Source: Clostridium sp.
GTDB lineage: Bacteria; Bacillota; Clostridia; Lachnospirales; Lachnospiraceae
NCBI GenBank assembly: GCA_023664605.1
Contig: JAMPFF010000022.1
Span: 1 to 43,207, forward strand
Direction: 5' to 3'
Length of the DNA: 43,207 bases
Shown here: piece after piece, positions 21,839 through 41,230 of the stretch
Layout: each line of letters starts with the position of its first letter
Numbering within the stretch: the stretch's first letter is position 1
Position numbers and translations under genes: made by a program
Notes under the pieces: model-generated
Databases searched by the model: none
The model's input: only the letters and a program-made list of their open reading frames with translations
What the model was told of the DNA's origin: nothing

Positions 21839-21871
21839 GCATACAGCTTATGGAATTTGCATCTTGGCTTA

Positions 21872-21899
21872 TTGACATTTAGAAAAAATATGATATACT
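21872..21899 (+). promoter_or_regulatory. Promoter of the cobalamin operon
   Basis: Perfect -35 TTGACA (21872-21877), 16-base spacer, TATACT (21894-21899). The start expected near 21906 lies 15 bases before the first riboswitch stem. Confidence 0.8.
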
Positions 21900-21920
21900 T
21901 TGGACAATTACATAGATAAC

Positions 21921-22106
21921 ATACAGGTGTCAAAACAATGCGTAAAAAAGCATTGGTTTTGGTGAAAAGGGAAACAGGTGGAAATCCTGTACGAACTCGT
22001 CACCGTAATTAGGGAGTAGAGGCCGATATATCACTGGGAAACTGGGAAGATGGCGGATGCGCTGGTTAATAAACCACGAACTTTAAGCCGGGAGACCTGC
22101 CTGTAT
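21921..22106 (+). promoter_or_regulatory. Cobalamin riboswitch aptamer
   Basis: P1 is a perfect 7-bp stem, ATACAGG (21921-21927) with CCTGTAT (22100-22106). GGTGA (21961-21965) pairs with TCACC (22000-22004), enclosing the conserved GGGAAACAGGTGG and AAATCCTGTACG segments (21969-21993). GGCC and CACTGGGAA follow at about 22021-22040, and the B12-box AAGCCGGGAGACCTGCC is at 22085-22101. It binds adenosyl- or methylcobalamin. With the downstream terminator at 22231-22275 it should shut off the whole biosynthesis/uptake operon when cobalamin is plentiful. Confidence 0.93.
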
Positions 22107-22161
22107 GTTGTACGGAAACATTTGTTTCAGACCACGAGTAACTGGTTGTACGTTTTACTTT

Positions 22162-22212: not shown

Positions 22213-22230
22213 GGGTTTCTTTGTATTGCA

Positions 22231-22275
22231 ATCCTTTACCGTAGTTGTGTTTTCGTTGCGGTGGGGGATTTTTTT
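22231..22275 (+). terminator. Riboswitch-controlled intrinsic terminator
   Basis: ATCCTTTACCG (22231-22241) pairs with CGGTGGGGGAT (22259-22269) in an 11-bp stem with three G-U pairs and is followed by seven T (22269-22275). It lies 90 bases before the first gene, which makes transcriptional control the likely mode. The 22276-22365 remainder holds only the ribosome binding site GGAGGAG at 22357-22363. Confidence 0.82.
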
Positions 22276-22365
22276 ATGCCTTTTTATGACGTAAAATATC
22301 TGCGCCGATATCTGGTAAATAATCAAGATGAAATAACGGCGCGGCAGACGCCGGAAGGAGGAGAC

Positions 22366-24375
22366 ATGAAGAAACGGGTAACGGCAGTATTGATGGCAGC
22401 TATGGTGGGAGCATTTTGTCTGGCGGGCTGCGGCAGTGGAAAAGAGGCGGAAACGGCGGTTTCCCAATCAACAGACAACGTCGGAGAGACAGCGGATAAT
22501 GCAGGACAGGCAGATACAGCAGGAGAAGCGGCGGATAATAACGGAGAGTCCGGCGCGGAAAGCGACCAGGCGGCGGCTGACGAGGTTGCGGCGTTGATTG
22601 ACGCTATTTATGTACAGGAGAGAACGGATGATACGGACGAACAGTGCGCACAGGCAAAGGCGGCATGGGACGCTTTAACGGATGCGCAGAAAGAATTGGT
22701 AGAAGGTGAGGATGCAGACCCGGATTATTTCGGAAGAGATACCGGAGACGCCTCCAAAGACGACCCCAGAAATCAGGATGATATCGGCGAAAACGAGATT
22801 TTGGTAGTGAGTTTCGGAACTTCTTTTAATGACAGCCGCGTAGCCGATATCAAGGGAATTGAGGACGCGATACAAGAGGCGAATCCCGACTGGTCGGTAA
22901 GACGGGCTTTTACCGCACAGATTATTATTAATCATGTGCAGGCAAGAGACGGGGAAAAAATTGATAATGTGCAGCAGGCATTGGAGCGCGCGGTGGCAAA
23001 CGGCGTTAAAAATCTGGTGATACAGCCTACGCATCTGATGCATGGCGCGGAGTATGATGAGTTGATGGAATCCGTCGAAGCATATCGGAATAAATTTGAA
23101 ACCGTGCAGGTTGCAGAGCCGCTTCTTGGCGAAGTTGGCGCGGACGCATCGGTTGTCAATGCGGATAAGGCGGCTGTAGCGGAAGCGGTTCTGGCGGCGG
23201 CTGTAGCGGACGCCGGATATGAAAGTCTTGCAGACGCACAGGAGGATGGCACGGCATTTGTCTTTTTAGGACATGGCACTTCCCATACGGCAAAGGTAAG
23301 CTATAGCCAGATGCAGACACAGATGACAGACATCGGCTGTGGCAACGCTTTTATCGGAACCGTGGAGGGAGAGCCGGAAGAGACAGCCTGCGAAGAAGTA
23401 ATAGAGGCGGTTTCCCGGATGGGATATACGAAAGTTATCCTGCGTCCGTTGATGGTAGTTGCGGGCGACCATGCCAACAACGATATGGCGGGCGAGGACG
23501 AAGATTCCTGGCTTAGTATGTTTATCGCTTCCGGGAAGTTTGAAAGTGTGGAGACGCAGATAACGGGGCTTGGTTCGATAGAGGATATCCGCAAGCTTTA
23601 TGTGGCGCATACGGCGGCGGTTCTCGGAAGAAGCCGGATGCAAAGCAAGGCGTCGGCGCTGCCGGACGGCGTTTACACGGCGGAGTTTACAACGGACAGC
23701 AGTATGTTCCATGTCAATGAGGCTTATGATAATAAAGGAACTTTAACAGTAGAAAACGGGGAAATGGTAATACACATTTCCCTGGGTTCCAAGAAAATTT
23801 TAAACCTGTATCCCGGACTTGCCGAGGACGCCGCAAAAGAGGGCGCGCAGTTGCTTTTGCCGACAAAAGATACGGTTACATACAGCGACGGCATGACAGA
23901 GGAAGTCTATGGATTCGATGTGCCTGTTCCTGTGCTGGAACAAGAATTTGATTTAGCGTTAATCGGAACGAAAGGAAAATGGTACGACCACAAAGTCCGC
24001 GTTTCCAATCCCGTTCCGGCAGAGGAAGATGCGCAGGCGAAAAAAACAAGTGCGCCGGAAGATGGCGTATACAATATCGAGATTACCTTTGAGGGCGGAA
24101 GCGGAAAGGCGGAGATTTTATCTCCCGCGGAAATTACGGTGACGAATGGAGAAGCAGTAGCGACAGTAACATGGAGCAGTCCGAATTATGATTATATGAT
24201 AGTGAATGGGAAAAAGTATTTCCCGGTCAATACGGGAGGAAACAGTGTCTTTGAGATTCCGGTTCTGGTATTTGGCGAGCCGATGGATATTATCGGCGAT
24301 ACCGTGGCGATGAGTAAGCCGCATGAAATAGAATATACAATAACATTTCAGTTAGACACCATACAGAAGAAATGA
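22366..24375 (+). CDS. cbiK: CbiK-type cobaltochelatase as a lipoprotein with extra C-terminal domains
   Basis: 669 residues. Signal peptide with lipobox LAGC (Cys22), an acidic linker, a small helical segment (about 75-115), then a complete CbiK domain (about 143-415): VVSFGTSFNDSR, QPTHLMHGAEY, FLGHGTSH, TVEGEPEE and VAGDHANNDMAGEDEDSW, which carry the metal and catalytic histidines and Glu. Two beta-rich domains follow (about 430-548 and 562-669), both opening (P/E)DGVY, the second with SSPNYDYMIVNGKKY; these look like NEAT/iron-transport-associated modules, tentatively. CbiK inserts cobalt into sirohydrochlorin, normally in the cytoplasm, so a surface anchor is odd. Start 22366 chosen for GGAGGAG and the signal peptide; the longer open frame upstream is riboswitch RNA. 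Confidence 0.87.
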   Translation: MKKRVTAVLMAAMVGAFCLAGCGSGKEAETAVSQSTDNVGETADNAGQADTAGEAADNNGESGAESDQAAADEVAALIDAIYVQERTDDTDEQCAQAKAAWDALTDAQKELVEGEDADPDYFGRDTGDASKDDPRNQDDIGENEILVVSFGTSFNDSRVADIKGIEDAIQEANPDWSVRRAFTAQIIINHVQARDGEKIDNVQQALERAVANGVKNLVIQPTHLMHGAEYDELMESVEAYRNKFETVQVAEPLLGEVGADASVVNADKAAVAEAVLAAAVADAGYESLADAQEDGTAFVFLGHGTSHTAKVSYSQMQTQMTDIGCGNAFIGTVEGEPEETACEEVIEAVSRMGYTKVILRPLMVVAGDHANNDMAGEDEDSWLSMFIASGKFESVETQITGLGSIEDIRKLYVAHTAAVLGRSRMQSKASALPDGVYTAEFTTDSSMFHVNEAYDNKGTLTVENGEMVIHISLGSKKILNLYPGLAEDAAKEGAQLLLPTKDTVTYSDGMTEEVYGFDVPVPVLEQEFDLALIGTKGKWYDHKVRVSNPVPAEEDAQAKKTSAPEDGVYNIEITFEGGSGKAEILSPAEITVTNGEAVATVTWSSPNYDYMIVNGKKYFPVNTGGNSVFEIPVLVFGEPMDIIGDTVAMSKPHEIEYTITFQLDTIQKK

Positions 24376-25607
24376 AAAAAGCAATAAAGACAGAAATAAT
24401 GAAAAAAAAGACAGCGAAAAGAACAATAGTATTTTGCTTTCTGGCATGGGCAGGACTGTTTGGACTATGCAGCTGTGGAAAGGCTTCATATGCTGCGCCG
24501 CCGATATCCAATGCTGAGATAGACACTAATACCATACCGAAGGTGGAAACGAACACGGACTGGGAGCTGGCAGAGGAAAGTCTGGTTTACGAAAGCAGCA
24601 TGGAATTACAGTATGCCGAGAATTTTACGGTCGATTATTATGAGGGCGGATATACCATGCTGACGACGACTATGGACGGCGGGCGGTTTTTGATTGTGCC
24701 AGAGGATAAAGAAGCGCCGCAGGATGTAGACGCCGTAGTATTACAGAGACCGATAAAAGATATCTATCTGGTGGCGTCTGCGGCAATGGATATGTTCAGT
24801 GGATTGGACGGGTTAGACGCTATTACTTTTTCGGGGCAGAAAGAGGACGGATGGTATATCGAAACGGCACGGGAAGCCATGGCGGACGGAGATATTCTTT
24901 ATGCGGGAAAATACAACAAGCCGGACTACGAATTGATTGTTTCCCAAAACTGTAAGCTGGCGATAGAAAATATGATGATTTCCCATTCCCCCGAAGTGGT
25001 GGAGAAACTGGAGGATTTTGGGATTCCGGTGATGATAGAGTATTCCAGCTATGAGCCGCATCCGCTCGGTAGGGTGGAATGGGTTAAATTTTATGGCGCG
25101 CTGCTTGGAAAAGAAGAGGAAGCGGAAAGGATATTTAAAGAACAGACGGATATCCTTGACAAAGTAAAAGCAGAAGAAAAAACGGATAAAACCGTCGCTT
25201 TCTTTTTTGTGACGTCTAACGGTCTGATACAGGTGCGCCAATCGTCGGATTATGTACCGAAGATGATAGAACTTGCGGGCGGAAACTATATCTTTGAGAA
25301 TCTGGGCGACGAAGAAACGAAGCGTTCCACGATAAATATGCAGGTGGAAGAGTTTTATAACGGCGCAAAGGAAGCGGACTTTTTGATTTATAACAGCTCC
25401 ATTGACGGAGGCGTTTCCAGTGTGGAGGAGCTTTTGGATAAATGTGAACTGTTAGCGGATTTTAAGGCGCTAAAAGAGGGAAATGTCTGGTGTACGACCA
25501 ACGATATGTACCAGCAGTCTCTTTCCATCGGTTATTTAATCGAAGATATTCACAAGATGATTGCGGGAGAAAATGATGGTATGCACTATCTTTTTCATTT
25601 AAATTAA
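24372..25607 (+). CDS. btuF: Corrinoid ABC transporter substrate-binding lipoprotein (BtuF-like)
   Basis: Up to 411 residues. Lipobox LCSC (Cys35 counted from 24372), then a periplasmic-binding-protein fold of the iron-siderophore/B12 class (about 90-400, e.g. AAMDMFSGLDGLDAI, FGIPVMIEYSSYEPHPLGRVEWVKFYGALLGKE shape, YVPKMIELAGGNYIF). ATG 24372 overlaps the cbiK stop (ATGA). ATG 24399 would give a more usual 26-residue signal peptide, so the start is open. With the permease and ATPase downstream and the riboswitch upstream, corrinoid is the likely ligand, although heme or siderophore cannot be excluded from sequence alone. Confidence 0.85.
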   Translation: MKKAIKTEIMKKKTAKRTIVFCFLAWAGLFGLCSCGKASYAAPPISNAEIDTNTIPKVETNTDWELAEESLVYESSMELQYAENFTVDYYEGGYTMLTTTMDGGRFLIVPEDKEAPQDVDAVVLQRPIKDIYLVASAAMDMFSGLDGLDAITFSGQKEDGWYIETAREAMADGDILYAGKYNKPDYELIVSQNCKLAIENMMISHSPEVVEKLEDFGIPVMIEYSSYEPHPLGRVEWVKFYGALLGKEEEAERIFKEQTDILDKVKAEEKTDKTVAFFFVTSNGLIQVRQSSDYVPKMIELAGGNYIFENLGDEETKRSTINMQVEEFYNGAKEADFLIYNSSIDGGVSSVEELLDKCELLADFKALKEGNVWCTTNDMYQQSLSIGYLIEDIHKMIAGENDGMHYLFHLN

Positions 25608-25678: not shown

Positions 25679-26695
25679 ATGAACAAAATTAGAAACCATA
25701 GATATGTGGGGGCTTTTGTTTTACTTATATTTGGAACAATGCTTTTCTTTATATTAAATATCTGCATCGGCAGCGTTAAGATTACGCTGCCGGATATGAT
25801 GGCAGTCTTTGCCGGAGAAAAAAGCGCTGAAACGGCGGAAAGAATCTTATATGATATCCGACTGCCAAGAGCGGCGGCGGTTTTTATACTTGGCGGGGCG
25901 CTTTCTCTTGCGGGATATCTTTTACAGACTTTTTTTCATAATCCGATTGCAGGCCCGTTTGTTTTGGGAATCTCTTCCGGAGCCAAAATGGTTGTGTCAC
26001 TGGTGATGGTTTTTCTGATGGGAAAAGCCGTCAGGGTAACCTCGGCGTTGTTGATTCTTGCGGCATTTGCCGGGGCCATGCTATCTATGGGATTTGTGCT
26101 GATATTGTCACGTAAAATTAACAGTATGCCGATGTTAATCGTCAGCGGCGTTATGATTGGATATATTTGTTCGGCGGTAACGGAACTGGTGGTAACATTT
26201 GCGGATGATGCCGATATTGTCAATCTTCATAACTGGTCGCGCGGTAGTTTTTCCGGGATGACGTGGGAAAACGTAAAGGTGATGACAATAGTGGTGGCGG
26301 TAACGTTTATGGCGGTTTTTTTGATATCAAAACCGCTCGGCGCGTATCAGGCGGGAGAGACATATGCACAGAATCTGGGAGTAAATATCCGTTTACTGCG
26401 AATGGGCATTGTCATTTTTTCCAGTATTTTATCGGCGTGCATCGTCGCCTTTGCGGGACCGATTTCTTTTGTGGGAATTGCAGTGCCGCATCTTGTGAAA
26501 AAGCTTTTACATACGACGGAGCCGCTTTGGATGATACCTGCCTGCTATCTGGGGGGAAGCGCGTTTTGCCTTTTTTGTGATTTGCTTGCCAGAACGATGC
26601 TTGCGCCCACGGAACTAAGCATCAGCACGGTGACAGCTGTTTTTGGCGCGCCGGTAGTGCTTTGGATTATGATAAGAAAACAAAAAGAGAAATAG
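25679..26695 (+). CDS. btuC: Corrinoid ABC transporter permease (BtuC/FecCD family)
   Basis: 338 residues with about ten TM helices and FecCD signatures: LPRAAAVFILGGALSLAGYLLQTFF in the N-terminal third, RGSFSG, GISFVGIAVPHLVKKL-like segment near residue 265 (GPISFVGIAVPHLVKK) that contacts the ATPase. AAAGG precedes ATG 25679. A 71-base gap separates it from btuF; no terminator is seen there. Confidence 0.92.
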   Translation: MNKIRNHRYVGAFVLLIFGTMLFFILNICIGSVKITLPDMMAVFAGEKSAETAERILYDIRLPRAAAVFILGGALSLAGYLLQTFFHNPIAGPFVLGISSGAKMVVSLVMVFLMGKAVRVTSALLILAAFAGAMLSMGFVLILSRKINSMPMLIVSGVMIGYICSAVTELVVTFADDADIVNLHNWSRGSFSGMTWENVKVMTIVVAVTFMAVFLISKPLGAYQAGETYAQNLGVNIRLLRMGIVIFSSILSACIVAFAGPISFVGIAVPHLVKKLLHTTEPLWMIPACYLGGSAFCLFCDLLARTMLAPTELSISTVTAVFGAPVVLWIMIRKQKEK

Positions 26696-26704
26696 GGATT
26701 GGGC

Positions 26705-27496
26705 ATGAATGATTATTACTTTTCTACGAAAAAAATGTGCGTAGGATATGACGATAAGCCATTGATAAAAGAAATCGAAATGGCATTACCTAAAGGAGAG
26801 ATTCTAACAATAATAGGCCCCAACGGCGCAGGAAAATCCACGGTGTTAAAAAGTATCGCCGGGCAGCTTCGCCTGCTTGGCGGAACGGTCTATCTGGGAG
26901 AAGAAGCCGTAGGAGCAATGAAAAGAGAAGAACTGGCAAAAAAAATGTCCGTATTGTTTACGGAAAAATTAAGAACAGAAATGCAAAGCTGCCGGGATGT
27001 GGTGGCGACGGGAAGATATCCGTATACGGGATGGTTTGGCGTGTTATCAAAAGCGGATAAATACATTGTGGAAGAAGCAATGGAACTGGTGCATATTACG
27101 GATATCGGCGGACAGGATTTTCATAAAATCAGCGACGGGCAGAGGCAGCGGGTGATGCTGGCAAGGGCAATCTGCCAGGAGCCGGAAATTATCATACTGG
27201 ACGAGCCGACATCCTATCTGGACATCAGGTATAAATTGGAGTTTTTATCCGTATTACAGGAAATGAGGGAAAAGAAAAACCTTACCGTGGTTATGTCTTT
27301 ACACGAACTGGAACTGGCAAAGATAGTTTCCGATAAGATACTCTGCTTAAAAGGAGAGTATGTCGAACGCTGCGGCACGCCGGAGGAAGTTTTTGAAACG
27401 GATTTTATAGAAAGACTTTTTGATATAGATAAGAATAACTTTGCGGGGAGCGAAAAATTCCTGGCGTATATCAGACAGGTGGAAATGTATCGTTAA
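26705..27496 (+). CDS. btuD: Corrinoid ABC transporter ATPase (BtuD/FepC family)
   Basis: 263-residue ABC ATPase: Walker A GPNGAGKST, Q-loop region, signature ISDGQRQRVMLAR (Ser-Asp-Gly in place of the common LSGGQ), Walker B EIIILDEPTSYLD and the switch His in SLHELE. ATG 26705 preferred over TTG 26699 because AGGG at 26694-26697 is at the right distance. It follows the permease after nine bases and completes the BtuFCD transporter. Confidence 0.93.
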   Translation: MNDYYFSTKKMCVGYDDKPLIKEIEMALPKGEILTIIGPNGAGKSTVLKSIAGQLRLLGGTVYLGEEAVGAMKREELAKKMSVLFTEKLRTEMQSCRDVVATGRYPYTGWFGVLSKADKYIVEEAMELVHITDIGGQDFHKISDGQRQRVMLARAICQEPEIIILDEPTSYLDIRYKLEFLSVLQEMREKKNLTVVMSLHELELAKIVSDKILCLKGEYVERCGTPEEVFETDFIERLFDIDKNNFAGSEKFLAYIRQVEMYR

Positions 27497-27561
27497 AGCG
27501 TCAATAAAAGTATCAGTACAAGTATAAATTGGCGGGTTACAGAAAGGGAACGGTTATCAAT

Positions 27562-29043
27562 GTGGCAAAGGTTATTATGATTCAGGGAACGATGTCCGGC
27601 GCGGGCAAAAGCCTTTTGACGGCAGGGCTGTGCAGGATTATGAAGCGGAACGGGTACCGTGTCGCGCCTTTTAAATCACAGAATATGTCGCTCAATTCCT
27701 TTATCACAAAGGAGGGGCTTGAAATGGGCAGGGCGCAGGTGATGCAGGCGGAGGCGGCGGGCGTGGAACCGCTTGTCTGTATGAATCCGATTTTGTTAAA
27801 GCCGACAGACCATACCGGTTCACAGGTAATCGTGAACGGACAGGTTCTTGGGAATATGAGCGCAAGAGAGTATTTTTCCTATAAAAAGAATTTAATTCCC
27901 GAGATAAAGAAAGCGTTTCGGAAACTGGAAGAGACGGCGGACATTATCGTTATTGAGGGAGCGGGCAGCCCGGCAGAAATCAATCTGCGTGAAAATGATA
28001 TTGTCAATATGGGTCTGGCGCAGATGGTTGACGCACCGGTTTTGCTTGTGGGAGATATTGACAGGGGCGGCGTGTTTGCGCAGCTTTTGGGAACGTTAAT
28101 GCTTCTGTCAAGAGAGGAAAAAGAAAGAGTAAAAGGTCTGGTTATCAATAAATTCCGGGGCGATAGTTCGCTGTTGGATTCCGGAATTGAGATATTGGAG
28201 CAAAAGGGAGGCATTCCGGTATACGGCGTCATCCCTTATATGGAAATAGCGTTGGAGGACGAGGATAGTCTGACGACCCGTTTCGATAAAAAGGAAAAAG
28301 GAAAAATCGATATAGCGGTTATCAGATATCCCAGAATTTCAAATTTCACGGATTTTAATGTATTTGAACAAATAGAAGATGTATCGGTGCGTTATGTTAC
28401 ATCACCGTCACAGTTAGGGCGGCCGGATATTATTTTTTTGCCCGGCAGTAAAAATACCATGAGCGATTTAGAATGGATGCGTGGGAACGGATTGGAAAAC
28501 GCCGTGAAAAAGCTGGCAGAGGAGATAGCGGTTTGTGGTATCTGCGGCGGATATCAGATGCTGGGCAGCCGGATTTTAGACCCGGATAATCTGGAGGCGG
28601 GCGGAGCGATACAAGGCATGGAACTGCTTTCCGTAACAACGAAATTACAGCATGAAAAGGTGCGCCGTCAGGTACATGGAACAGTGAATAAGCTGGAGGG
28701 CGTCTTTGCCGCGCTTTCCGGGCTTGACTATGAGGGGTATGAGATACATATGGGGCAGAGCATGGAACATACGGATGGAGCATTCATAACAGGGCAAACC
28801 CCTAATGTATACGGAACTTATATACACGGCATTTTCGATAAGGGAGCGGTCGCGTCTGCGCTTGTGGGAACGCTGGCAGAAAAAAAGGGAATCGTCACGG
28901 ATAAAGGCACGGAAACGGCCAAAGAACCTTATATGGACTATCAGGAATATAAAGAAAAGCAGTATGATAAGTTGGCGGATATTTTATCAGCATATTTGAA
29001 CATGGAGGAAATCTATGGAATGCTTAGAGAGGCGCGTGTATGA
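27562..29043 (+). CDS. cobQ: Cobyric acid synthase
   Basis: CobQ/CbiP, glutamine-dependent amidation of adenosylcobyrinic acid a,c-diamide at four side chains. 493 residues: N-terminal synthetase domain with P-loop-like [31 protein letters not shown]-terminal class I glutaminase domain with nucleophile Cys328 in [10 protein letters not shown] and a late His in [13 protein letters not shown] 27562 chosen because it gives the family's usual beginning (M)AKVIMIQGT and has GGAACGG eight bases upstream; TTG 27529 is the alternative. Its last 29 bases overlap cobT. Confidence 0.95.
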
Positions 29044-30109
29044 TAGCGATATGGAAGAGGATTTATTAAAATTATCAGTGGACGCGCCGGACAGGGAGAT
29101 ATACAAAAAGATATTGCAAAACTGGGATGCCATAGCGAAACCGCTTGACGGCATGGGAAAATTTGAACCGCTGACGGCACAGATAGGAGCGGTTTTAGGT
29201 ACGGAGGAAATTGATATTTCTAAAAAGGCGGTCGTTATCATGTGTGCGGATAACGGCATTGTAAAAGAGGGCGTCAGCCAGTCCGGACAGGAAGTGACGC
29301 TGGCTGTCGTTAAGCAGATGGCAAAAGGAGCGTCCTCGGTAGGAAAAATGGCGGCGGCAGTAGGGGCGGACACGATTCCTATCGATATCGGAATTGGCAG
29401 TGCGGAGAAAATACCGGGCGTGCTGGATAAGAAAATCCGCCGGGGAACCGGAAATTTCAAAATAGAAGCGGCTATGACAAGACAAGAGGCTGTCAGGGCG
29501 ATTTATACAGGCATGGAAACCGCGGCTGACTGTAAGAAAAAAGGCTATCGTATTCTGGCGGCGGGCGAAATGGGCATCGGCAATACGACAACAAGCAGCG
29601 CTGTGGCGGCAGCTCTTTTAAAGTGCGAAGCGGAGGCGGTAACCGGACGGGGCGCGGGTCTTTGCGATGAGAAATTACAGCGGAAAAAGCAAGTGATTCA
29701 AGAAGCGATTGCCAAATACAAACTCTATGAGGCAGAGCCGCTTCGTGTGTTGGAAACCGTCGGCGGACTGGATATTGCAGGGCTTACCGGCCTTTGTATC
29801 GGCGGCGCGCTTTCCCGTATACCGATAGTGTTGGACGGCGTTATCAGTATGACGGCGGCGCTTCTTGCCGAGAGACTTGTGCCGGGCGTCATACAATATT
29901 TGATACCATCGCATAAAGGGAAAGAACCGGCGGTGGAAAAATTAATGAAAGAGCTGAAATTAGAGCCTGTTATTGACGCTCGGATGGCGTTGGGAGAGGG
30001 AACGGGCGCGGTCATGATGTTGTTGCTTTTAGAGACGGCCTTATGCGTTTATCACGAAAAAAACACTTTTGAAAATATACAAATAGAGCAGTACAAAAGA
30101 TATCAATAA
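29015..30109 (+). CDS. cobT: Nicotinate-nucleotide-dimethylbenzimidazole phosphoribosyltransferase
   Basis: CobT activates the lower-ligand base to its alpha-ribotide. 364 residues with the family motifs [36 protein letters not shown] and GEGTGAVM, which includes the catalytic Glu near residue 328. ATG 29015 lies inside the end of cobQ with GGAGG at 29004-29008, so the 29-base overlap is supported. No benzimidazole synthesis genes (bza, bluB) are in the window, so the base would come from elsewhere or from the environment. Confidence 0.95.
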
Positions 30110-30135
30110 CAGGAAAGGCAAGGCGGCGCATAAAG

Positions 30136-30663
30136 ATGATGATATTGATTGTTGGCGGGAGCGGAAGCGGGAAGTCCGCTTATGCGGAAAAGACAGCCGG
30201 AGAGTTTCCCGGAAAAAAATATTATCTGGCGACGATGCAGATTTTGGATGAAGAAAGCCGCCGCAAAGCGGACAGACATAGGGAACTTAGAAAAGACAAA
30301 GATTTTATTACGATAGAACAGCCGGTGGAAATTCAGAAAGCGTTAGCACAAATGGCGGCGGGAGAGAAGACTGTTTTGTTGGAGTGCATGTCAAATCTTA
30401 CGGCAAATGAAATGTTCTCCGGGGAAGAGCCACGGACGAAAGAGCAGGTAGTTGAAAGTGTGATAGCAGGGATAAAAATATTGCAAAAAGAGATAACTCA
30501 TCTTGTTATCGTGAGCAACAATGTGTTTGAAGACGGCATTATTTATGAAGAGACAACGATGGAATATATCGAGGCAATGGGGGCGGTTAATGAAAAAATT
30601 GCCGCTATGGCCGAACAGGTTGTGGAAGTTACGACAGGGATTCCTATTATGCTGAAACGCTGA
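30136..30663 (+). CDS. cobU: Adenosylcobinamide kinase/guanylyltransferase
   Basis: CobU phosphorylates adenosylcobinamide and transfers GMP to it. 175 residues: P-loop GGSGSGKS (7-14), guanylylation motif RHRELR with His48, then ECMSNLTANEMF, IVSNNVFEDGI and the terminal VTTGIPIMLK. The usual Glu of the SNE(V/T)G motif is Asn here (SNNVF). A second, shorter CobU-like gene follows cobS. Confidence 0.92.
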   Translation: MMILIVGGSGSGKSAYAEKTAGEFPGKKYYLATMQILDEESRRKADRHRELRKDKDFITIEQPVEIQKALAQMAAGEKTVLLECMSNLTANEMFSGEEPRTKEQVVESVIAGIKILQKEITHLVIVSNNVFEDGIIYEETTMEYIEAMGAVNEKIAAMAEQVVEVTTGIPIMLKR

Positions 30664-30687
30664 TAGGATGTTTGGGAGGCGTAAAAT

Positions 30688-31470
30688 ATGCGGGTTATAA
30701 AATCTTTTTTAATAGCGGTTTCCATGTATTCCACAATTCCGGTTCCCCAGTTTGCGTGGAAGGAAGAGGATATGCGCTATATTTTCTGCTTTTTTCCATG
30801 GATAGGAGCCTTGATTGGCGCAGGCATTTATCTGGGGAATTATTTGTGTGACAGATATCATATCGGGGTTTTGTGCCGGGTGGCAATGGATGCACTCATA
30901 CCGCTTCTGGTAACGGGGGGTATTCATATGGACGGATTCATGGACACGATGGATGCCATACATTCCTATAGAGACAGAGAGAGAAAACTGGAAATTATGA
31001 AAGATTCCCATACCGGCGCGTTTGCGGTTATTATGCTGGCTGTCTACGGGCTTATTTATGCGGGAGCATTTTCGGAAATAGAGCGTCAGGCGTCGTTAAA
31101 AATCGTATGCAGCGGCTTTTTTTTGTCACGTTGTCTTTGCGGTATCAGCGCAATTTCTTTTCCGACTGCGAAAAAAGACGGTACGCTTTATCTTTTCGCA
31201 GACAGTTCCGGGAAAAATATCGTGAAAGTCATCTTATATATGGAAAGCGCTGTCTGTATCGGTTTGATGCTCTTTTTTTCCGTTTCTGCGGGATTATTTA
31301 CGGCAGCAGCGGCTTTCGTGATGTTTGGATATTATTACTATCGCGCCAGGAAGGAGTTTGGAGGTGTTACCGGCGATACGTCGGGCTGTTTTATATTGAT
31401 TTGCGAAGTTTTTATGATAGCGGCAGCGGCTTTATCGGATATCTGGATTCGCGCGGCAGGCGGCGTTTGA
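30688..31470 (+). CDS. cobS: Adenosylcobinamide-GDP ribazoletransferase
   Basis: CobS, the membrane enzyme joining AdoCbi-GDP and the alpha-ribotide. 260 residues, several TM helices, the metal-binding signature GGIHMDGFMDTMDAIHSY (about 74-91) and the KDSHTGAFAV motif (about 108-117). GGGAGG precedes ATG 30688. Confidence 0.94.
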   Translation: MRVIKSFLIAVSMYSTIPVPQFAWKEEDMRYIFCFFPWIGALIGAGIYLGNYLCDRYHIGVLCRVAMDALIPLLVTGGIHMDGFMDTMDAIHSYRDRERKLEIMKDSHTGAFAVIMLAVYGLIYAGAFSEIERQASLKIVCSGFFLSRCLCGISAISFPTAKKDGTLYLFADSSGKNIVKVILYMESAVCIGLMLFFSVSAGLFTAAAAFVMFGYYYYRARKEFGGVTGDTSGCFILICEVFMIAAAALSDIWIRAAGGV

Positions 31471-31510
31471 TAAGCGGATGCGCAGGCCGGGAAAGGGCAT
31501 GGAGGAACAG

Positions 31511-31894
31511 ATGAAATTGATTATAGGCGGATATGCACAGGGGAAACTGCACTATGTACTGCAAAAGTATCAGTTGGCGGAAGATGTGGTATGGGATGCC
31601 AGGCTGCTGGAGAGCAGCGTTTCATCAGAACAGACAATCGTTATCAATCATTTTCATAAATGGATAAAGGAACGTCTCATAACCGGAAACTCTCCGGAAG
31701 AGGAAATACTGTCTTTTTTGGAGAATCATGAAAACTGCATCATCATCAGTGATGAGATTGGAAACGGTATTGTGCCGGTGGACGCGTTCGAGAGAGAATA
31801 TCGGGAGCGTACGGGCAGGATTCTGGTAACGCTTGCCGAAAGAGCAGAGGAGGTAGAACGCGTCCTATGCGGAATCGGACAGAAAATCAAGTGA
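31511..31894 (+). CDS. Short CobU-like protein lacking a normal P-loop Ser
   Basis: 127 residues. N-terminus MKLIIGGYAQGKLHYV is P-loop-like (GGxxxGK) but has Leu instead of Ser/Thr; the C-terminal half, IISDEIGNGIVPVDAF through GRILVTLAERAEEVERVLCGIGQKIK, aligns with the end of CobU, including the Glu missing from the main cobU product. It lacks RHRxxR but has NHFHKW near 46. GGAGG at 31501-31505 selects ATG 31511. It is either a CobU paralogue with a different nucleotide or corrinoid role or a regulatory partner of CobU. Such short versions are usually just labelled cobU in related genomes. Confidence 0.75.
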   Translation: MKLIIGGYAQGKLHYVLQKYQLAEDVVWDARLLESSVSSEQTIVINHFHKWIKERLITGNSPEEEILSFLENHENCIIISDEIGNGIVPVDAFEREYRERTGRILVTLAERAEEVERVLCGIGQKIK

Positions 31895-32535
31895 TATTGG
31901 CGTTTATCCGACACGGCGAAACACAGGCGAATAAAGAGCATAGATATTTAGGAACAACGAATGAGTCTCTTTCTAAGGAGGGAGTCCGGCAGCTATTGTC
32001 ATATAGAAAGCAAGGCATATATCCGGACGTACAATATCTATTCACCAGCCCTATGAAAAGATGTCTGGAAAGCGCACGGATTCTTTATCCGGAGATTACG
32101 CCGGTCATCATTCCGGAGTGGAGGGAAATAGACTTCGGACGCTTTGAATATAAAAATTATGACGAGTTAAAAGATGACAGGCAGTATCAGGCATGGATTG
32201 ACAGCGGCGGAACGCTGGCTTTTCCGGATGGGGAAAGCAGGGAAAATTTTCATTTGCGTTGTGAAAAAGGTTTTAGGCGGATGTGCAGTATGCTTTGCCA
32301 AAGCGTGGATGACGGTGTGGAGGCGCCGCTTCGGACGGCGTTGATTGTCCATGGCGGCACGATGATGTCATTACTGAGCGCGTATGGCATTTATCATTCC
32401 CCTAAAGAGAAGAAGAGTTATTTTGACTATCAGACCATAAACGGCAGAGGTTATCTATGTACCATGAAAAAGTGGTATGACGGGAGTGCATTAGAAAAAA
32501 TGGAGATACAAATAGAGATAGAGGCAGACATATGA
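31867..32535 (+). CDS. cobC: Histidine phosphatase, CobC-like
   Basis: 222-residue phosphoglycerate-mutase-fold phosphatase: catalytic FIRHGETQAN (His16), SPMKRCLESA, EIDFGRFE and the second His in VHGGTMMSLL. By context it dephosphorylates the last intermediates (adenosylcobalamin 5'-phosphate or alpha-ribazole phosphate). Starts within the preceding gene (28-base overlap); GAGGAGG at 31847-31853 is 13 bases upstream. GTG 31891 (4-base overlap) is an alternative start. Confidence 0.9.
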   Translation: MRNRTENQVILAFIRHGETQANKEHRYLGTTNESLSKEGVRQLLSYRKQGIYPDVQYLFTSPMKRCLESARILYPEITPVIIPEWREIDFGRFEYKNYDELKDDRQYQAWIDSGGTLAFPDGESRENFHLRCEKGFRRMCSMLCQSVDDGVEAPLRTALIVHGGTMMSLLSAYGIYHSPKEKKSYFDYQTINGRGYLCTMKKWYDGSALEKMEIQIEIEADI

Positions 32536-33515
32536 GATATCATATTATAGCATTTTTTACCGGATTTTTACTGGATTTGGTTTTCGGAGACCCACATTGG
32601 CTGCCGCATCCAATCCGGCTGATAGGAAAGTTGATAACAAAAACGGAAAAAGCGTTGCGAAAATCGGAAACAGATAACGCTAAGGCACAAATCCGGCAGG
32701 GAGCGGCGTTAGTAATGATTGTACTGGCGGGCGTTACGGCGGCAGCATTTTTGCTTTTGCTGGCAGCATACCGGATATATCCTTATCTGGGGATGGCGGC
32801 GGAATGTCTTATGACCTATCAGATTTTGGCGGTGAAGAGCCTGAAAGACGAGAGTATGAAAGTGTACCGATGTTTGCAAAATGGCGATTTGGATAAGTCC
32901 AGAAGAGCCGTTTCCATGATTGTGGGCAGGGATACGGACTGTCTGGATGAAGAGGGAGTTGCGAAAGCGGCGGTGGAAACGGTGGCGGAGAATACTTCTG
33001 ACGGAGTCATTGCTCCGATGCTGTATCTGGCGGTTGGCGGACCGACGCTTGGCTTTTTTTATAAGGCGGTAAACACCATGGATTCCATGATTGGCTATCG
33101 GAATGATAAATATTTATATTTTGGCAGGACGGCCGCAAAGTTGGACGATATTGTCAATTTCATTCCGGCAAGAATCAGCGCATATCTGATGATTGCAGCG
33201 GCTTTTCTCGCAGGGGGAGAGTTTTCAGGAAAACATGCGGCGGCCGTCTATAAAAGAGACCGAAAAAAACATGCGAGTCCTAATTCTGCACAGACGGAGT
33301 CGGTGTGCGCTGGTGCGCTTGGCATAAGACTGGCAGGAGATGCCAGCTATTTTGGCAAAATGGTAAAAAAGCCATATATAGGCGATGCGCTGCGGAATGT
33401 GGAATACGAGGATATCAAACGCGCCAACCGCCTTATGTATGTTACGGCATGGATGTGTGAAGCAATATGCCTGATAGTATTGCTTGGCGTACAAATAATG
33501 ATAGGAAAGGGATGA
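32532..33515 (+). CDS. cbiB: Adenosylcobinamide-phosphate synthase
   Basis: CbiB attaches (R)-1-amino-2-propanol phosphate to adenosylcobyric acid. 327 residues, several TM helices, family motifs GDPHWLPHPIRLIGKLI (about 17-33), RDTDCLDEEGVAKAAVETVAEN-type segment near 137-158, NTMDSMIGYRNDKY. ATGA overlap with the phosphatase. Its substrate aminopropanol phosphate comes from the next gene. Confidence 0.94.
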   Translation: MRYHIIAFFTGFLLDLVFGDPHWLPHPIRLIGKLITKTEKALRKSETDNAKAQIRQGAALVMIVLAGVTAAAFLLLLAAYRIYPYLGMAAECLMTYQILAVKSLKDESMKVYRCLQNGDLDKSRRAVSMIVGRDTDCLDEEGVAKAAVETVAENTSDGVIAPMLYLAVGGPTLGFFYKAVNTMDSMIGYRNDKYLYFGRTAAKLDDIVNFIPARISAYLMIAAAFLAGGEFSGKHAAAVYKRDRKKHASPNSAQTESVCAGALGIRLAGDASYFGKMVKKPYIGDALRNVEYEDIKRANRLMYVTAWMCEAICLIVLLGVQIMIGKG

Positions 33516-33519
33516 GTGG

Positions 33520-34569
33520 ATGAGTATTCACGGCGGCGATATCTATAGAAATCATGTCGATATTGATTTTTCGATAAATATCAATCCGCTTGGCACGCCA
33601 AAGGCTGTAAAGGCGGCGATGTATGAAGCCGTCGAAATGTGCGGCGGGTATCCGGATATGGAAGCGGAAAAACTAAAAAAAGCGGTCAGCAGAATGTTGG
33701 CAGTACCGGAACAATATCTGCTTTTCGGGAATGGGGCTTCGGAACTTTTTATGGCGGTTACGCATGGATTAAAACCGCAAAAAACCGTAATACCGGTTCC
33801 CTCTTTCTATGGATATGAATATGCGGCCGAAGCGGCGGAAAGTGAAATTATTTATTATGAGATGAAAGAGAAAAATCATTTTTGTATCACAAGCGATTTT
33901 TGCGAAACGCTGACAAAGGATACAGACCTTGTTTTTCTTGCTAATCCCAATAATCCTACGGGAATGCTTATTGAAAAAGACGAGCTTTTAAAGCTGCTTT
34001 ATCATTGCCGGGAAAAAGAAATTTATGTGGTGTTGGATGAGAGTTTCATTGAATTTACAGGCAGCGGTTTTTCCATGCTTTCGGAAATAAACGAATTTGA
34101 CAATTTGATACTTGTTAGAAGTTTTACGAAAATTTTTTCGATTCCTGGTGCGCGGTTAGGATATCTGGTCTGTAAAAATCCTGCGCTTCTGGCAAGGATA
34201 GCCGGACAGCTTCCGGAATGGAATTTATCTTGTTTTGCACAAGCGGCAGGCTGTGCCTGTGTCATACAGAATGAATTTATATTACATACGAAACGCTTTG
34301 TGGAACAGGAGAAGAAGTTATTAGCGGACGGATTAAGAAAACAGGGATTTACGGTGTTTTCTTCTGCGGCGAATTTTCTTCTCATATATGGGGAAGAGGG
34401 GTTATATGATAAACTGTTACAAAAAGGCGTTTTAATCAGGAATTGCGAAAATTTCAGGGGGCTGCGGAAAGGATTTTATCGGATTGCAGTGAAAAGCAGA
34501 GGAGAGAATGAGATTTTACTGAAAGCAATCGAAAGCCTGAAACATGAAAACCGAGCGGGTGAGAATTGA
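33520..34569 (+). CDS. cobD: Threonine-phosphate decarboxylase
   Basis: PLP aminotransferase-fold enzyme making (R)-1-amino-2-propanol phosphate from L-threonine phosphate. 349 residues, HGGDIYRN and FSININPLG at the N-terminus, NPNNPTG (about 145-151), and the PLP-binding Lys204 in SFTKIFSIPGARLGY. AAAGGG at 33506-33511 supports ATG 33520, four bases after cbiB. Confidence 0.93.
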   Translation: MSIHGGDIYRNHVDIDFSININPLGTPKAVKAAMYEAVEMCGGYPDMEAEKLKKAVSRMLAVPEQYLLFGNGASELFMAVTHGLKPQKTVIPVPSFYGYEYAAEAAESEIIYYEMKEKNHFCITSDFCETLTKDTDLVFLANPNNPTGMLIEKDELLKLLYHCREKEIYVVLDESFIEFTGSGFSMLSEINEFDNLILVRSFTKIFSIPGARLGYLVCKNPALLARIAGQLPEWNLSCFAQAAGCACVIQNEFILHTKRFVEQEKKLLADGLRKQGFTVFSSAANFLLIYGEEGLYDKLLQKGVLIRNCENFRGLRKGFYRIAVKSRGENEILLKAIESLKHENRAGEN

Positions 34570-34590: not shown

Positions 34591-35241
34591 GTGGAACATC
34601 GTAAAATAGAATATGTACTGCCGGAGGAAATTGAAAAACGCAGTTTTGAGATAATTGACGACGAACTTGCACAGAGGGAAATTGTACTTGGAAAAGAGGA
34701 AGAAGCGATTATAAAACGAGTCATACATACCAGCGCGGATTTTGACTATGCGAAGACTCTCCGCTTTTCAAAAGGGGCGGTCACGCAGATGCGGGAATTG
34801 ATAAAAAACGGTGCGGATATTGTAACGGATACCAATATGGCTTTAGCCGGAATCAATAAAAATGTGCTTGCAAGATTTGGCGGAGAGGCACATTGTTTTA
34901 TGGCGGATGAAGAGGCTGCGCGTCTGGCAAAGGAAAGAAAAACAACGCGGGCAGCAGTCAGCATGGAGATGGCGGCGGCGATAGAAAAACCGATTATTTT
35001 TGTAATCGGCAATGCGCCGACGGCATTGATAAAATTATATGAAATGATAAAAGAAAGCGGCTGGAAGCCTGCCTTTATTATCGGTGTGCCGGTAGGATTC
35101 GTCAATGTGGAGGCGGCCAAGGAACTGATATTGCAAACGGATATTCCCTACATTGTCAATGTAGGAAGAAAAGGCGGTAGCACGATTGCGGCGGCAATCT
35201 GTAACGCCGTATTGTATCAACTGCGGGATGCAGAAAAATAA
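34591..35241 (+). CDS. cbiC: Cobalt-precorrin-8 methylmutase
   Basis: CbiC moves the C11 methyl to C12, giving cobyrinate. 216 residues; catalytic His46 in RVIHTSADFDY, plus VTDTNMALAGIN and NAPTAL. GTG start at 34591 with a GGAAAGGAACGG stretch upstream; no ATG in a better position. Confidence 0.94.
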   Translation: MEHRKIEYVLPEEIEKRSFEIIDDELAQREIVLGKEEEAIIKRVIHTSADFDYAKTLRFSKGAVTQMRELIKNGADIVTDTNMALAGINKNVLARFGGEAHCFMADEEAARLAKERKTTRAAVSMEMAAAIEKPIIFVIGNAPTALIKLYEMIKESGWKPAFIIGVPVGFVNVEAAKELILQTDIPYIVNVGRKGGSTIAAAICNAVLYQLRDAEK

Positions 35242-35262
35242 AAAGCAGAAAGGAACATCGGA

Positions 35263-36408
35263 ATGCGATACGGTTTTACGACCGGAAGCTGCGCGGCGGC
35301 AGCGGCAAAAGCGGCTTCCTATATGCTATTGACAGGGCGGCTTAAAACAGAAATCACAATCGAAACGCCGAAAGGGATTTTATATACGGCCGGGATTTTG
35401 GATATCAGACGCAGTGAAAACGAGGTAAGCTGCGCGGTAAAAAAAGACGGCGGCGATGACCCGGATATTACAAGCGGTACGCTGATTTATGCCAGCGTGT
35501 CCTATCCGGAGGCTGCCAAGCAGGAAGAAACAAAAAACGACAAGGAAAAGGAAATCATAATAGAAGGCGGAATCGGTATCGGAAGAGTGACAAGACCCGG
35601 ACTTGACCAGCCGATAGGGAATGCAGCTATCAATCATGTGCCAAGAAAAATGATAGAAAAAGAAGTGCTGGAAGTGTGCAGGGCCGCGGATTACAGGGGC
35701 GGTTTATATATTGAAATTTCCGCGCCGGAGGGAGAAAAGCTTGGCGTCCGTACCTTTAATCCAAGGCTGGGCATTGTCGGCGGCATTTCAATATTGGGAA
35801 CAAGCGGTATCGTGGAACCAATGAGCAGTCAGGCGATTTTGGATACGATTCGGGTGGAATTGCGGCAAAGAAGAGCGGAAGGGTTCGATTATGCTACAGT
35901 CTCACCGGGAAACTATGGTTTGGATTTTATGAAAAAGACATATGGATATGATTTGGACAGAAGCGTCAAATGCAGCAATTTTATCGGAGAGACCATTGAT
36001 ATGATGGTGGAACTGGGTTTTCAGAAAATGCTTTTGACCGGTCATATCGGTAAGTTAATTAAAGTGGCAGGAGGCATTATGAATACGCATTCCAAAGAGG
36101 CGGATTGTCGAATGGAACTTCTGGCGGCATTTTCCATAAGAGAGGGGATAACGGCTAAGCAGGCATATGCCATACTCGAATGTGCAACGACGGAGGAAGC
36201 AATACCGATTTTGGAGCGCGGTGGAAAATTACAGCCGGTAATGGATAATATTGCAGAGCGGATTTGTTTTTATATGGAAAACCGCGCCGGAGGGAAACTG
36301 AAAACAGACTGTATTTTATATGCGAATGCGTATGGAGAGCTGGCAAAAAGCAGGGGGGCAGAAGAATGGTTTACTTTGTTGGAGCAGGAACAGGCGCAGC
36401 AGATTTGA
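35263..36408 (+). CDS. cbiD: Cobalt-precorrin-5B C1-methyltransferase
   Basis: CbiD, 381 residues: RYGFTTGSCAAAAAKAA at the N-terminus, KKDGGDDPDIT (about 58-68), IGRVTRPGL and NPRLGIVGGISILGTSGIVEPMS-type core near 164-188. Overlaps the following fusion gene by 43 bases. It acts on the product of the CbiG half of that fusion. Confidence 0.95.
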   Translation: MRYGFTTGSCAAAAAKAASYMLLTGRLKTEITIETPKGILYTAGILDIRRSENEVSCAVKKDGGDDPDITSGTLIYASVSYPEAAKQEETKNDKEKEIIIEGGIGIGRVTRPGLDQPIGNAAINHVPRKMIEKEVLEVCRAADYRGGLYIEISAPEGEKLGVRTFNPRLGIVGGISILGTSGIVEPMSSQAILDTIRVELRQRRAEGFDYATVSPGNYGLDFMKKTYGYDLDRSVKCSNFIGETIDMMVELGFQKMLLTGHIGKLIKVAGGIMNTHSKEADCRMELLAAFSIREGITAKQAYAILECATTEEAIPILERGGKLQPVMDNIAERICFYMENRAGGKLKTDCILYANAYGELAKSRGAEEWFTLLEQEQAQQI

Positions 36409-38342
36409 TAACGGTTAGGGGAATGCGGCTGTTGGAGCGGGCGGATGTGATTATTTATGCGGGTTCTTTGGTAAATCCTGACTTGCTTACTTATGCAGGG
36501 AAAGACTGTGCGATATATAACAGCGCAAAATTAACTCTGGGGGAAGTAATTCAGATAATGAAAAATGCGGAAGCGGATGGGAAAATGACTGTCAGATTAC
36601 ATACGGGCGACCCCAGCGTTTACGGAGCGGTCAGAGAGCAGATGGACGAACTGGACCGCCTTGGCATTTCTTACGAAAGCTGTCCGGGAGTCAGCGCATG
36701 TTTCGGAGCGGCCGCTTCCCTGAATTTAGAATATACCCTGCCGGGAATTTCACAGTCCTTAATCATTACGAGGATGGAGGGAAAAACAAAGGTTCCAGAG
36801 AAAGAAAGCATTGAACGGTTTGCGGCGCATCAGGCATCCATGGCAGTTTATTTAAGCGTGGGAATGACGGAGGAGTTAAGCAGGCGTTTGATTGCGGGAG
36901 GATATCGGGAAACGACTCCGGCGGCGATTGTGTATAAAGCAACATGGGATGAGGAAGAGGCGTATATCTGCACAGTGAAAACATTGCATGAGACTGCGGT
37001 TGTACATGGCATTACGAAGACTGCGCTGGTGTTGGTCGGCGATGCGATTGCACATCAAAATTATCGTAAATCGCGGTTGTATGCGCCTGATTTTGCAACG
37101 GCGTTTCGCCCCGCACGAATCGAAAAGGAAACAATGCACTCCTTGCCGCAAAATGAGAAAATAAGCATTATCAGTTTTACGGAAAAAGGATTAAAGCTTG
37201 CGGAAAAAATTCGTTCGCGGCTGAAAGGCGAAACAGAGCGCGACGGCAGAGACAGTTATATCGCAGATGACGGCAAAGACGGTCATATCGAAAGTGGAAC
37301 GGAGGTTGTTTTGTATACCAAATGGAAAGCTTATCCGCAAGGCGATAGGCCGCACTCTGTCTTGTATGTGGACATATCTGTCAGTGATTGGGCAAAAATG
37401 CAGATGCAGGAGCAAAATGCGCTGCTTTTTATCGGCGCGTGCGGGATTGCGGTTAGGGCAGCCGCACCGCATATTAGCGATAAGCTGCATGACGTTCCGG
37501 TGTTGGTCATGGATGAAATGGGAAGATATGTGATTCCCATTTTATCAGGGCATATGGGCGGGGCAAATGAACTTGCCCTCTGTCTGGCAAAAGAGACGGG
37601 AGCGGAACCGGTTATTACGACGGCAACGGATATTCATGGAAAATTTGCGGTGGATTTGTTTGCAAAAAGGAATCATCTTTTCATTGAAAATAAAAATGGT
37701 ATCGCGGCGGTTTCGGCGAAAGTTTTAGCGGGAGAAGAGATTACAATCTCCATAGAACCGAGGTATGAAAAGGACAGTAAAAAACGGGGCAGCAGTGTAT
37801 CGGAAGAAAGCCGTCTGACGGATAGAGATTGTCCGCCGCAGGGAGTACGGCTTGTGCCATATCCGCCGACGGAAGCGGTTGACGTTGTTGTGACATCTGG
37901 CGGGGATGATTTTGGAGCAGCCGTTTTGTTAAGGCCAAAGGAGTATGTTATCGGGATAGGATGTAAAAAGGGAAAAAACGCAGAAGAAATAGAAAGCCTG
38001 ATTGAAAAGAAAATGACAGAGGCGGGCATATCCGTAACGCAGATTTTTGCGCTTTCCTCTATTTCACAAAAACAGGATGAAAAGGGAATACTGGACTACG
38101 CCCATAAAGAGGGGATTTTATTTTTGACTTATAGTGCGGAGGAATTACAGAAAGTTGAAGGAGATTTTGCGCATTCAGATTTTGTGGAAAGTAAAGTAGG
38201 CGTTGACAACGTGTGCGAGCGGGCGGCGTTAAAGGCCTGCGGAGAAGACGGAAAACTGATTCTTGTAAAATATGCGGAAAACGGTATGACGATTGCGATA
38301 GCGAAACGCGGCTGGACGTTAGATTGGGAAAGGCAGGACTAA
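36366..38342 (+). CDS. cbiFG: CbiF-CbiG fusion: precorrin-4 methyltransferase and precorrin-5A hydrolase
   Basis: 658 residues. CbiF part (about 1-255): SAM tetrapyrrole methylase with VYFVGAGTGAADLITVRG, IYAGSLVN and the DPSVYGA loop; methylates C11. CbiG part (about 260-658): LLFIGACGIAVRAAAP, VIPILSGHMGGANELA and the C-terminal YVIGIGCKKGKN, FVESKVGVDNVCERAA; opens the delta-lactone and releases acetaldehyde. These are consecutive steps, so the fusion may channel the intermediate. Two charged stretches inside CbiG look like variable insertions. AGGGGGG at 36352-36358 selects ATG 36366, within cbiD. Confidence 0.93.
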   Translation: MVYFVGAGTGAADLITVRGMRLLERADVIIYAGSLVNPDLLTYAGKDCAIYNSAKLTLGEVIQIMKNAEADGKMTVRLHTGDPSVYGAVREQMDELDRLGISYESCPGVSACFGAAASLNLEYTLPGISQSLIITRMEGKTKVPEKESIERFAAHQASMAVYLSVGMTEELSRRLIAGGYRETTPAAIVYKATWDEEEAYICTVKTLHETAVVHGITKTALVLVGDAIAHQNYRKSRLYAPDFATAFRPARIEKETMHSLPQNEKISIISFTEKGLKLAEKIRSRLKGETERDGRDSYIADDGKDGHIESGTEVVLYTKWKAYPQGDRPHSVLYVDISVSDWAKMQMQEQNALLFIGACGIAVRAAAPHISDKLHDVPVLVMDEMGRYVIPILSGHMGGANELALCLAKETGAEPVITTATDIHGKFAVDLFAKRNHLFIENKNGIAAVSAKVLAGEEITISIEPRYEKDSKKRGSSVSEESRLTDRDCPPQGVRLVPYPPTEAVDVVVTSGGDDFGAAVLLRPKEYVIGIGCKKGKNAEEIESLIEKKMTEAGISVTQIFALSSISQKQDEKGILDYAHKEGILFLTYSAEELQKVEGDFAHSDFVESKVGVDNVCERAALKACGEDGKLILVKYAENGMTIAIAKRGWTLDWERQD

Positions 38343-38345
38343 TTG

Positions 38346-41149: not shown

Positions 41150-41230
41150 GAGGCAAGGTATTTCTGTTTTGCTTTGTATGAGAGACAAGGTATTTCTCGT
41201 TTTACTTTGTATGAAAGGCAGGATTTTCCT
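41134..41230 (+). repeat. Three tandem copies of a 32-33-bp unit between cbiT and cbiA
   Basis: Copies at 41134-41165, 41166-41198 and 41199-41230. Copies 1 and 2 agree at 29 of 32 positions; copy 3 is more diverged (about 25 of 32). Each has the order GTTTT-x-TTTG-x-ATGA-(A/G)AGRCA(A/G)G then a T-rich end. Copy 1 includes the end of the cbiT frame and its TGA; copy 3 supplies the ribosome binding site (AAAGGCAGGA) of cbiA. After the stop the frame stays open through the repeats into cbiA. Confidence 0.85.

Follow-up and report, generated by a model that had tools for sequence, protein, structure and literature searches.

The question raised by this locus is what a CbiK-type chelatase would do outside the cytoplasm, at the head of a B12 operon and joined to two further domains. 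The window analysed is the whole of contig C14 (43,207 nucleotides) of a Clostridium sp. genome of 3.59 Mb that is 95.5% complete. A sequence-only reading had described a surface chelatase chimera here and listed several possible roles for it, among them cobalt capture, cobalt loading into an external tetrapyrrole with hand-over to BtuF, and heme-type scavenging; the observation itself was confirmed and the interpretation was partly supported. We would give an even chance to the reading that the module captures a corrin-precursor tetrapyrrole from the surroundings, loads it with cobalt outside the cell and imports the product, with both ligand and activity predicted.

An acidic linker separates the lipoprotein signal, ending at Cys22, from the CbiK domain, which is followed by the C-terminal pair of beta-domains. 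As it carries this signal, the protein should sit outside the membrane, in support of the surface location proposed earlier. The chelatase domain is complete, as had been claimed; it matches the Pfam profile PF06180 (CbiK class II cobaltochelatase) at E 3.4e-66, and its fold is two-lobed with PDB entry 1qgo as the best match (TM 0.90 on the target). Both catalytic histidines are kept in the C-terminal half, His303 in GHG and His369 in AGDH, and by alignment they are the counterparts of H145 and H207 of Salmonella CbiK, as given in the available part of PMC7689651. The NCBIfam equivalog SiroCoChCbiK has a cut-off of 400 bits and the protein scores 180.4, so it is not an equivalog under the NCBIfam rule.

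The two fused domains, previously described as beta-rich and uptake-like, are divergent NEAT domains, which have a heme-binding fold and are of a tetrapyrrole-binding type. Fold comparison alone revealed this likeness, finding the NEAT fold in the tandem with coverage mainly of domain B; a profile of the NEAT pair had no match among PDB sequences at E 10, and PF05031 gave 18.8 bits on this protein, under its gathering score of 32.8. Among 43 such tandems, 41 had a NEAT Pfam match at E up to 0.01 (best 7.4e-10). The usual heme-ligand motif of NEAT domains is YxxxY. Here the ligand-motif strand reads PHExxY and is nearly invariant, in a register taken from the alignment ends alone, and from the range ends and alignments the position of the usual heme-ligand tyrosine seems not to be Tyr and not to be conserved.

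The position at the head of a B12 operon was also upheld. The gene sits behind a cobalamin riboswitch and heads a module of CbiK, NEAT-NEAT, BtuF, BtuC and BtuD (Table 1); the genes after it all point the same way and lie no more than 71 bases apart, from the substrate-binding protein, permease and ATPase, in BtuFCD order under the riboswitch, through cbiP and the genes for the corrin ring and the nucleotide loop, as far as cbiA. At E 0.1 the only NCBIfam match of the BtuF-type protein is the heme substrate-binding protein IsdE, far under cut-off, and the permease scores 215 bits against the BtuC equivalog cut-off of 334. The corrin genes (34591-42736) include two fusions, cbiF-cbiG and cbiJ-cbiE-cbiT, and no cbiL. 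A promoter scan of 21700-28000 gave 17 sites where 10.4 were expected, for which reason the promoter in Table 1 is suggestive only.

Table 1. Features of the operon in the window, with the basis of each assignment.
Feature	Position	Strand	Basis or remark
Sigma-70-like promoter, TTGACA-16-TATACT with TG	21872..21899	+	11/12 consensus matches; suggestive only
Cobalamin riboswitch RF00174, leads operon	21908..22118	+	96.1 bits, E 7.5e-23
cbiK-NEAT-NEAT, predicted surface lipoprotein	22366..24375	+	669 aa ORF
Lipoprotein signal peptide, lipobox LAGC, Cys22	22366..22431	+	by eye
CbiK chelatase domain, residues 145-418, His303 and His369	22798..23619	+	
NEAT-like domain A, about residues 434-549	23665..24012	+	Pfam NEAT below cut-off; model and tandem match to IsdH N2N3
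NEAT-like domain B, residues 561-667	24046..24366	+	PHExxY strand nearly invariant (His653, Tyr657)
BtuF-type substrate-binding lipoprotein	24372..25607	+	Peripla_BP_2, E 4.9e-26
BtuC-type FecCD permease	25679..26695	+	E 2.3e-78; best NCBIfam model BtuC, below cut-off
BtuD-type ATPase	26699..27496	+	best NCBIfam models FecE and others, below cut-off
cbiP	27529..29043	+	GATase_3 and CbiA domains; named by sequence
cobT, cobU, cobS, second short CobU-like ORF, cobC, cbiB, cobD	29015..34569	+	names from sequence and order; profile scan only for short CobU-like ORF
cbiC, cbiD	34591..36408	+	CbiD by PF01888; CbiC by sequence and order
cbiF-cbiG fusion	36384..38342	+	profile matches
cbiH	38343..39089	+	TP_methylase; named by order
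cbiJ-cbiE-cbiT fusion	39086..41149	+	profile matches
cbiA	41174..42736	+	CbiA and GATase_3 domains; named by sequence

A search of the window's genome found one CbiK only, the exported one, and no separate CbiX, which extends the earlier statement that the operon holds no other chelatase. Searches for HemB, HemC and CobA (over cut-off) found none of them in this 95.5% complete genome, and likewise no strong NAD_binding_7 match (SirC/CysG) and no CbiL over cut-off. Its four TP-methylase matches read as CbiF, CbiH, CbiE and, by sequence, one RsmI-like protein (C33:14472), and therefore neither CbiL nor CobA is seen among them. The corrin pathway is kept from CbiH on. The genome was compared within a set of 61 (its own and 60 relatives), 37 of which belong to its genus. 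Among the 23 CbiD+ genomes of the genus, HemB, HemC, CobA and a strong SirC match are jointly missing in 15 and CbiL over cut-off is missing in 22; HemB was detected in eight, one of which (G026, about 290 contigs) is without HemC, CobA and strong SirC. TP-methylase matches in ten genomes numbered four (G000, G005, G028, G034, G035, G053), five (G012, G017, G021) or six (G036).

As the early part of B12 synthesis seems to be missing from the genome, the likeliest reading is salvage of a half-built ring. The simplest account is precursor salvage with surface cobalt insertion and import, since the substrate of the chelatase is not makeable by the enzymes searched and the sole chelatase lies outside, beside the NEAT domains and the importer. 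In this scheme the protein would be the receptor-enzyme of a salvage importer controlled by the B12 riboswitch. Judging by its fold, the NEAT pair would bind an environmental isobacteriochlorin at the sirohydrochlorin or factor-III level, and the surface CbiK domain, with its active site intact, would insert Co2+ into the bound tetrapyrrole. It should be able to work outside the cell because its class, CbiK/X, is ATP-independent, as stated in the available part of PMC8123684. Gene order and fusions suggest that the NEAT pair would hand the cobalt-tetrapyrrole to the BtuF-like protein for import by BtuCD, and gene content suggests that the product would feed CbiH onward, so that under this proposal the cell would make cobamides without HemB, HemC, CobA and CbiL. 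Cobalt loading of an external ring for BtuF, formerly one option among several and given without the missing substrate-making enzymes as a reason, is now the best supported of them. A possible source of metal-free sirohydrochlorin is the desulfoviridin of gut sulfate reducers. If the scheme is true, a step of B12 biosynthesis takes place outside the cell, and some gut 'B12 producers' depend on their neighbours for the ring.

This bears on a class of organisms already recognised. In the portion of PMC6461909 available, 180 species, mostly Firmicutes, are designated tetrapyrrole precursor salvagers, with uptake or a novel synthesis route left open; PMC8123684, in the part available, cites a precorrin-2 class of salvagers, and the corresponding part of PMC6593275 treats the transporters of B12 precursors as an open problem. 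According to an extract of PMC7360928, none of 15 butyrate producers, Roseburia and Faecalibacterium strains included, has all B12 genes. Like the salvagers of Shelton et al. (PMC6461909, as excerpted), the window's genome seems to have a corrin pathway without its early steps, as far as HemB, HemC and CobA show: CbiD is present (PF01888), and these three are absent as searched. Unlike them it is also without CbiL, a corrin step, and the excerpt presents the salvagers as a gene-content class and names no uptake system. The module is a candidate for their uptake route, and a concrete and testable one for the open question, present in well-known gut genera. Among the open-licence papers listed, none described a CbiK-NEAT-BtuFCD system in its title or the opening of its abstract.

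The lack of CbiL constrains the imported compound. Sirohydrochlorin alone would not suffice without CbiL, barring a C20-methylation route or import of a trimethylated compound; the lack could mean that the imported compound already carries the C20 methyl (factor III level), that an unrecognised methyltransferase adds it, or that the pathway does without it. In one relative, G105, which has no CobA over cut-off, locus L164 reads CbiK-NEAT-BtuFCD-CbiL-CbiA, and this points to an input at the sirohydrochlorin level there.

CbiD is present in 28 of the 61 genomes, and CbiK matches at E 1e-30 or better occur in exactly these 28 (weakest 1.2e-30, G056); weak CbiK matches without CbiD occur in G040, G043 and G059. 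In the genus, CbiK with the NEAT pair is present in 23 of 23 CbiD+ genomes versus 0 of 14 CbiD- genomes, counts that are not independent because the genomes are related. In 16 of these 23 the NEAT pair and CbiK form one protein, in four (G006, G016, G020, G036) the pair is joined to the BtuF-like protein instead, and in three (G027, G028, G035) it is free. An assembly artefact or simple chimera was rejected given the same CbiK-NEAT fusion in 16 of the 23 unit-bearing genomes; the term chimera thus describes a real fusion, but only one of three arrangements. BtuF adjoins the unit in 16 of the 23 and was not found within about 1.5 kb of flank in the other seven (G005, G009, G011, G013, G018, G019, G028), so the supposition that CbiK-NEAT is always beside btuFCD did not hold.

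When named genomes were scanned for the NEAT pair, at least 587 related stretches came up, and the best 80 of these were analysed. Their matches fall in Lachnospiraceae, Blautia, Roseburia, Sellimonas, Faecalibacterium and others; the five-part module itself occurs in many members of the Lachnospiraceae and in some of the Oscillospiraceae (Blautia, Roseburia, Faecalibacterium). CbiK is present at 78 of these best 80 of at least 587 loci, BtuF at 75, BtuC at 75 and BtuD at 72. All 65 unfused CbiK ORFs, one being the signal-less copy of L146, are followed by a NEAT ORF, and NEAT-BtuF fusions occur at eight loci. The survey therefore describes a conserved module whose NEAT pair may be joined to CbiK, joined to BtuF or encoded on its own, and the coupling to BtuFCD noted earlier is widespread but not universal. 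The seven genus genomes without an adjacent BtuF left the odds unmoved, because BtuF is at 75 of the 80 wider loci and the btuFCD of those seven may lie elsewhere in the genome. A cobalamin riboswitch was detected at 11 of 12 relative loci scanned, the miss (L039) having only 171 bases of contig ahead of the gene, and at seven of seven named loci.

For gene content, a wider set of 50 module genomes, chosen for spread, was drawn from the best 80 loci. CobA is over cut-off in 30 of these and not in the other 20, and a CbiF-level match was found in all except G072 (49/50). The strict form of the idea, in which the module marks salvagers only, was rejected on these 30 genomes and on the eight HemB+ genomes among the 23 of the genus; both counts speak against the salvage reading, as do the missing CbiL, the non-adjacent BtuF (7/23), the transporter models below cut-off and the heme-ligand tyrosine of NEAT domains, which seems not to be kept here. 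In CobA+ genomes the module could be an additional salvage route.

N-terminal signals are also present in relatives of the exported clade. Across all sets, 88 of 98 CbiK ORFs tested have a hydrophobic N-terminal stretch; the ten without are nine signal-less CbiKs and L044, which gains the stretch when read from an upstream start. The hydrophobicity threshold was 1.6, and L181 (1.39) and L191 (1.59), whose starts are uncertain, lie near it. A loose lipobox pattern is found in the first 160 residues of 62 of 79 CbiK ORFs of the best 80 loci; among the 17 that fail, L137 and L144 have lost their N-terminus at a contig end, L146 is signal-less (265 aa) and several of Blautia have an ordinary signal peptide. 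In a tree of 37 rows, with a quarter of the exported rows kept besides the named ones, identical or short rows dropped, and L201 and four ORFs without a start pattern (L038, L103, L137, L144) left out, the exported CbiKs form one group apart from the signal-less ones with 100/100 support. A strict histidine pattern missed 13 of 102 CbiK ORFs; with a looser one GHG is found in 102 of 102 and GDH in 99, the three without being signal-less, so no exported CbiK ORF among those checked has lost either motif.

This conservation bears on the alternative that survives best, an accessory corrinoid receptor in which CbiK and the NEAT domains just bind finished cobamides or cobinamide for an ordinary BtuFCD and the chelatase activity is unused. 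The riboswitch at the head of the operon and the BtuC model as best NCBIfam match of the permease would suit such a receptor, and B12 producers often import too, importers being abundant according to the available part of PMC6461909. Cobamide users without a corrin pathway should need such a unit most, yet it is in none of the 14 CbiD- genomes of the genus but in all 23 CbiD+ ones, and the conserved histidine motifs also stand against it; we regard this alternative as unlikely.

Signal-less CbiKs adjoin or lie near CbiL or hem genes (G070, G094, G096, G098, G107, G109). They were found in six of 13 CobA+ and none of four CobA- module genomes, a floor and not a rate, since it comes from chosen stretches around matches of CobA or CbiL type and includes L181 and L191. 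Within the order they also occur in G037, G046, G049 and G056, and in the 61-genome set in four of five CbiL+ genomes (all but G036), versus no second CbiK in any of the 23 CbiD+ genomes without CbiL. Of 18 genomes in which CbiL was read, seven (G083, G087, G094, G100, G103, G108, G109) have a cassette of CbiL, ABC2 ATPase, ABC2 permease and a single NEAT-like protein (L176, L178, L182, L189, L190, L146/L192, L156), which in G083 is directly behind the module (L123/L189). It looks like a cassette of exporter type linked to an enzyme of B12 precursor synthesis, and it suggests the bold but testable idea that the CbiL product is exported and shared. We put forward only tentatively that gut bacteria trade the half-made ring: some species would make the CbiL product and release it through this ABC-2 exporter with its NEAT-like anchor, and species like this one, without HemB, HemC, CobA and CbiL, would catch it with surface NEAT domains, add cobalt outside and import cobalt-factor III through BtuFCD in order to complete the cofactor. 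The same cassette, which in one case adjoins the module, would also fit a cycle within one cell, in which a ring synthesised internally leaves the cell, receives cobalt at the surface and is imported again. Such a cycle could not run in the window's genome, where ring synthesis seems to be lacking, and of the seven genomes with the cassette two (G094, G109) carried a signal-less CbiK in the stretches that were read; we think it quite improbable.

In Gram-positive Isd heme uptake, NEAT proteins at the surface pass a tetrapyrrole on to IsdEF, an importer of the FecCD type; the system is iron-regulated and its ligand is heme. The module shares this plan of surface NEAT and FecCD-type importer, whereas Isd has no chelatase and the NEAT metal-ligand strand here is apparently different. 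Scavenging of heme or porphyrin, by a heme receptor or a de-chelatase outside the cell that resembles FetB or HmuS and feeds iron or porphyrin, could draw on the NEAT fold, on the weak match of the BtuF-like protein to IsdE and on FetB as second-best PDB match of the CbiK domain. This option of the earlier reading is not favoured because of the B12 riboswitch and the tracking of CbiD, and the operon of cbi genes and the apparent absence of the ligand tyrosine also stand against it; it seems very unlikely. Porphyromonas gingivalis FetB (PDB 9b86), also named IhtB, is likewise an extracytoplasmic chelatase of CbiK type (domain identity 32%), but its 293-aa chain is too short for NEAT domains. 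In the available part of PMC13402209 it is linked to Mn-porphyrin and not, as here, to the importer of a B12 operon, and is said to insert Mn into protoporphyrin, a precedent for extracytoplasmic metal insertion by a CbiK-type enzyme; according to that of PMC6461909, P. gingivalis is without the steps that lead to precorrin-2. The periplasmic CbiK of Desulfovibrio vulgaris (PDB 2xvx) is also exported (31% identity over the domain), but has a single domain.

NEAT domains bind heme-type rings and FecCD-type importers carry large chelates, which argues against cobalt capture, in which CbiK and the NEAT pair would collect Co2+ and the ABC transporter would import the ion or a chelate for a cytoplasmic pathway. 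Cobamide synthesis needs cobalt, and CbiK binds Co2+ according to the available part of PMC7689651, but cobalt capture leaves the missing HemB, HemC and CobA and the lack of a cytoplasmic chelatase unexplained, and is as improbable as heme scavenging. A cytoplasmic isoform from an internal start, which the sequence-only reading had named as evidence against itself and which would serve an ordinary de novo pathway with the lipoprotein form secondary, is hardly credible: the protein is the sole chelatase found, and the TTG of residue 77 is preceded by the four bases GAGG, as it is in the nearest relative, but no internal start with a full Shine-Dalgarno was found in the ORF, the exported-clade ORFs tested have signals, and no HemB, HemC or CobA was found here for making sirohydrochlorin.

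Several other genes of the window were recorded. A 253-aa protein (21077-21838) lies just upstream of the riboswitch, where it is kept in several relatives, and has no Pfam match at E 0.1. The second short CobU-like ORF (31478-31894, 138 aa) matches the C-terminal part of the CobU model only, at 48 of 161 bits, and has the same position in relatives with the full operon. A gene for a cysteine-rich small domain (PF04071, E 9e-23; 42594-42947) closes the operon, and a homologue lies just upstream of CbiK in L042, L043, L045, L151, L157 and L165. Finally, the ORF at 6838-7602 has, by eye, a lipoprotein-type signal before an apparent flavodoxin-like domain, and would thus be a redox protein apparently outside the membrane.
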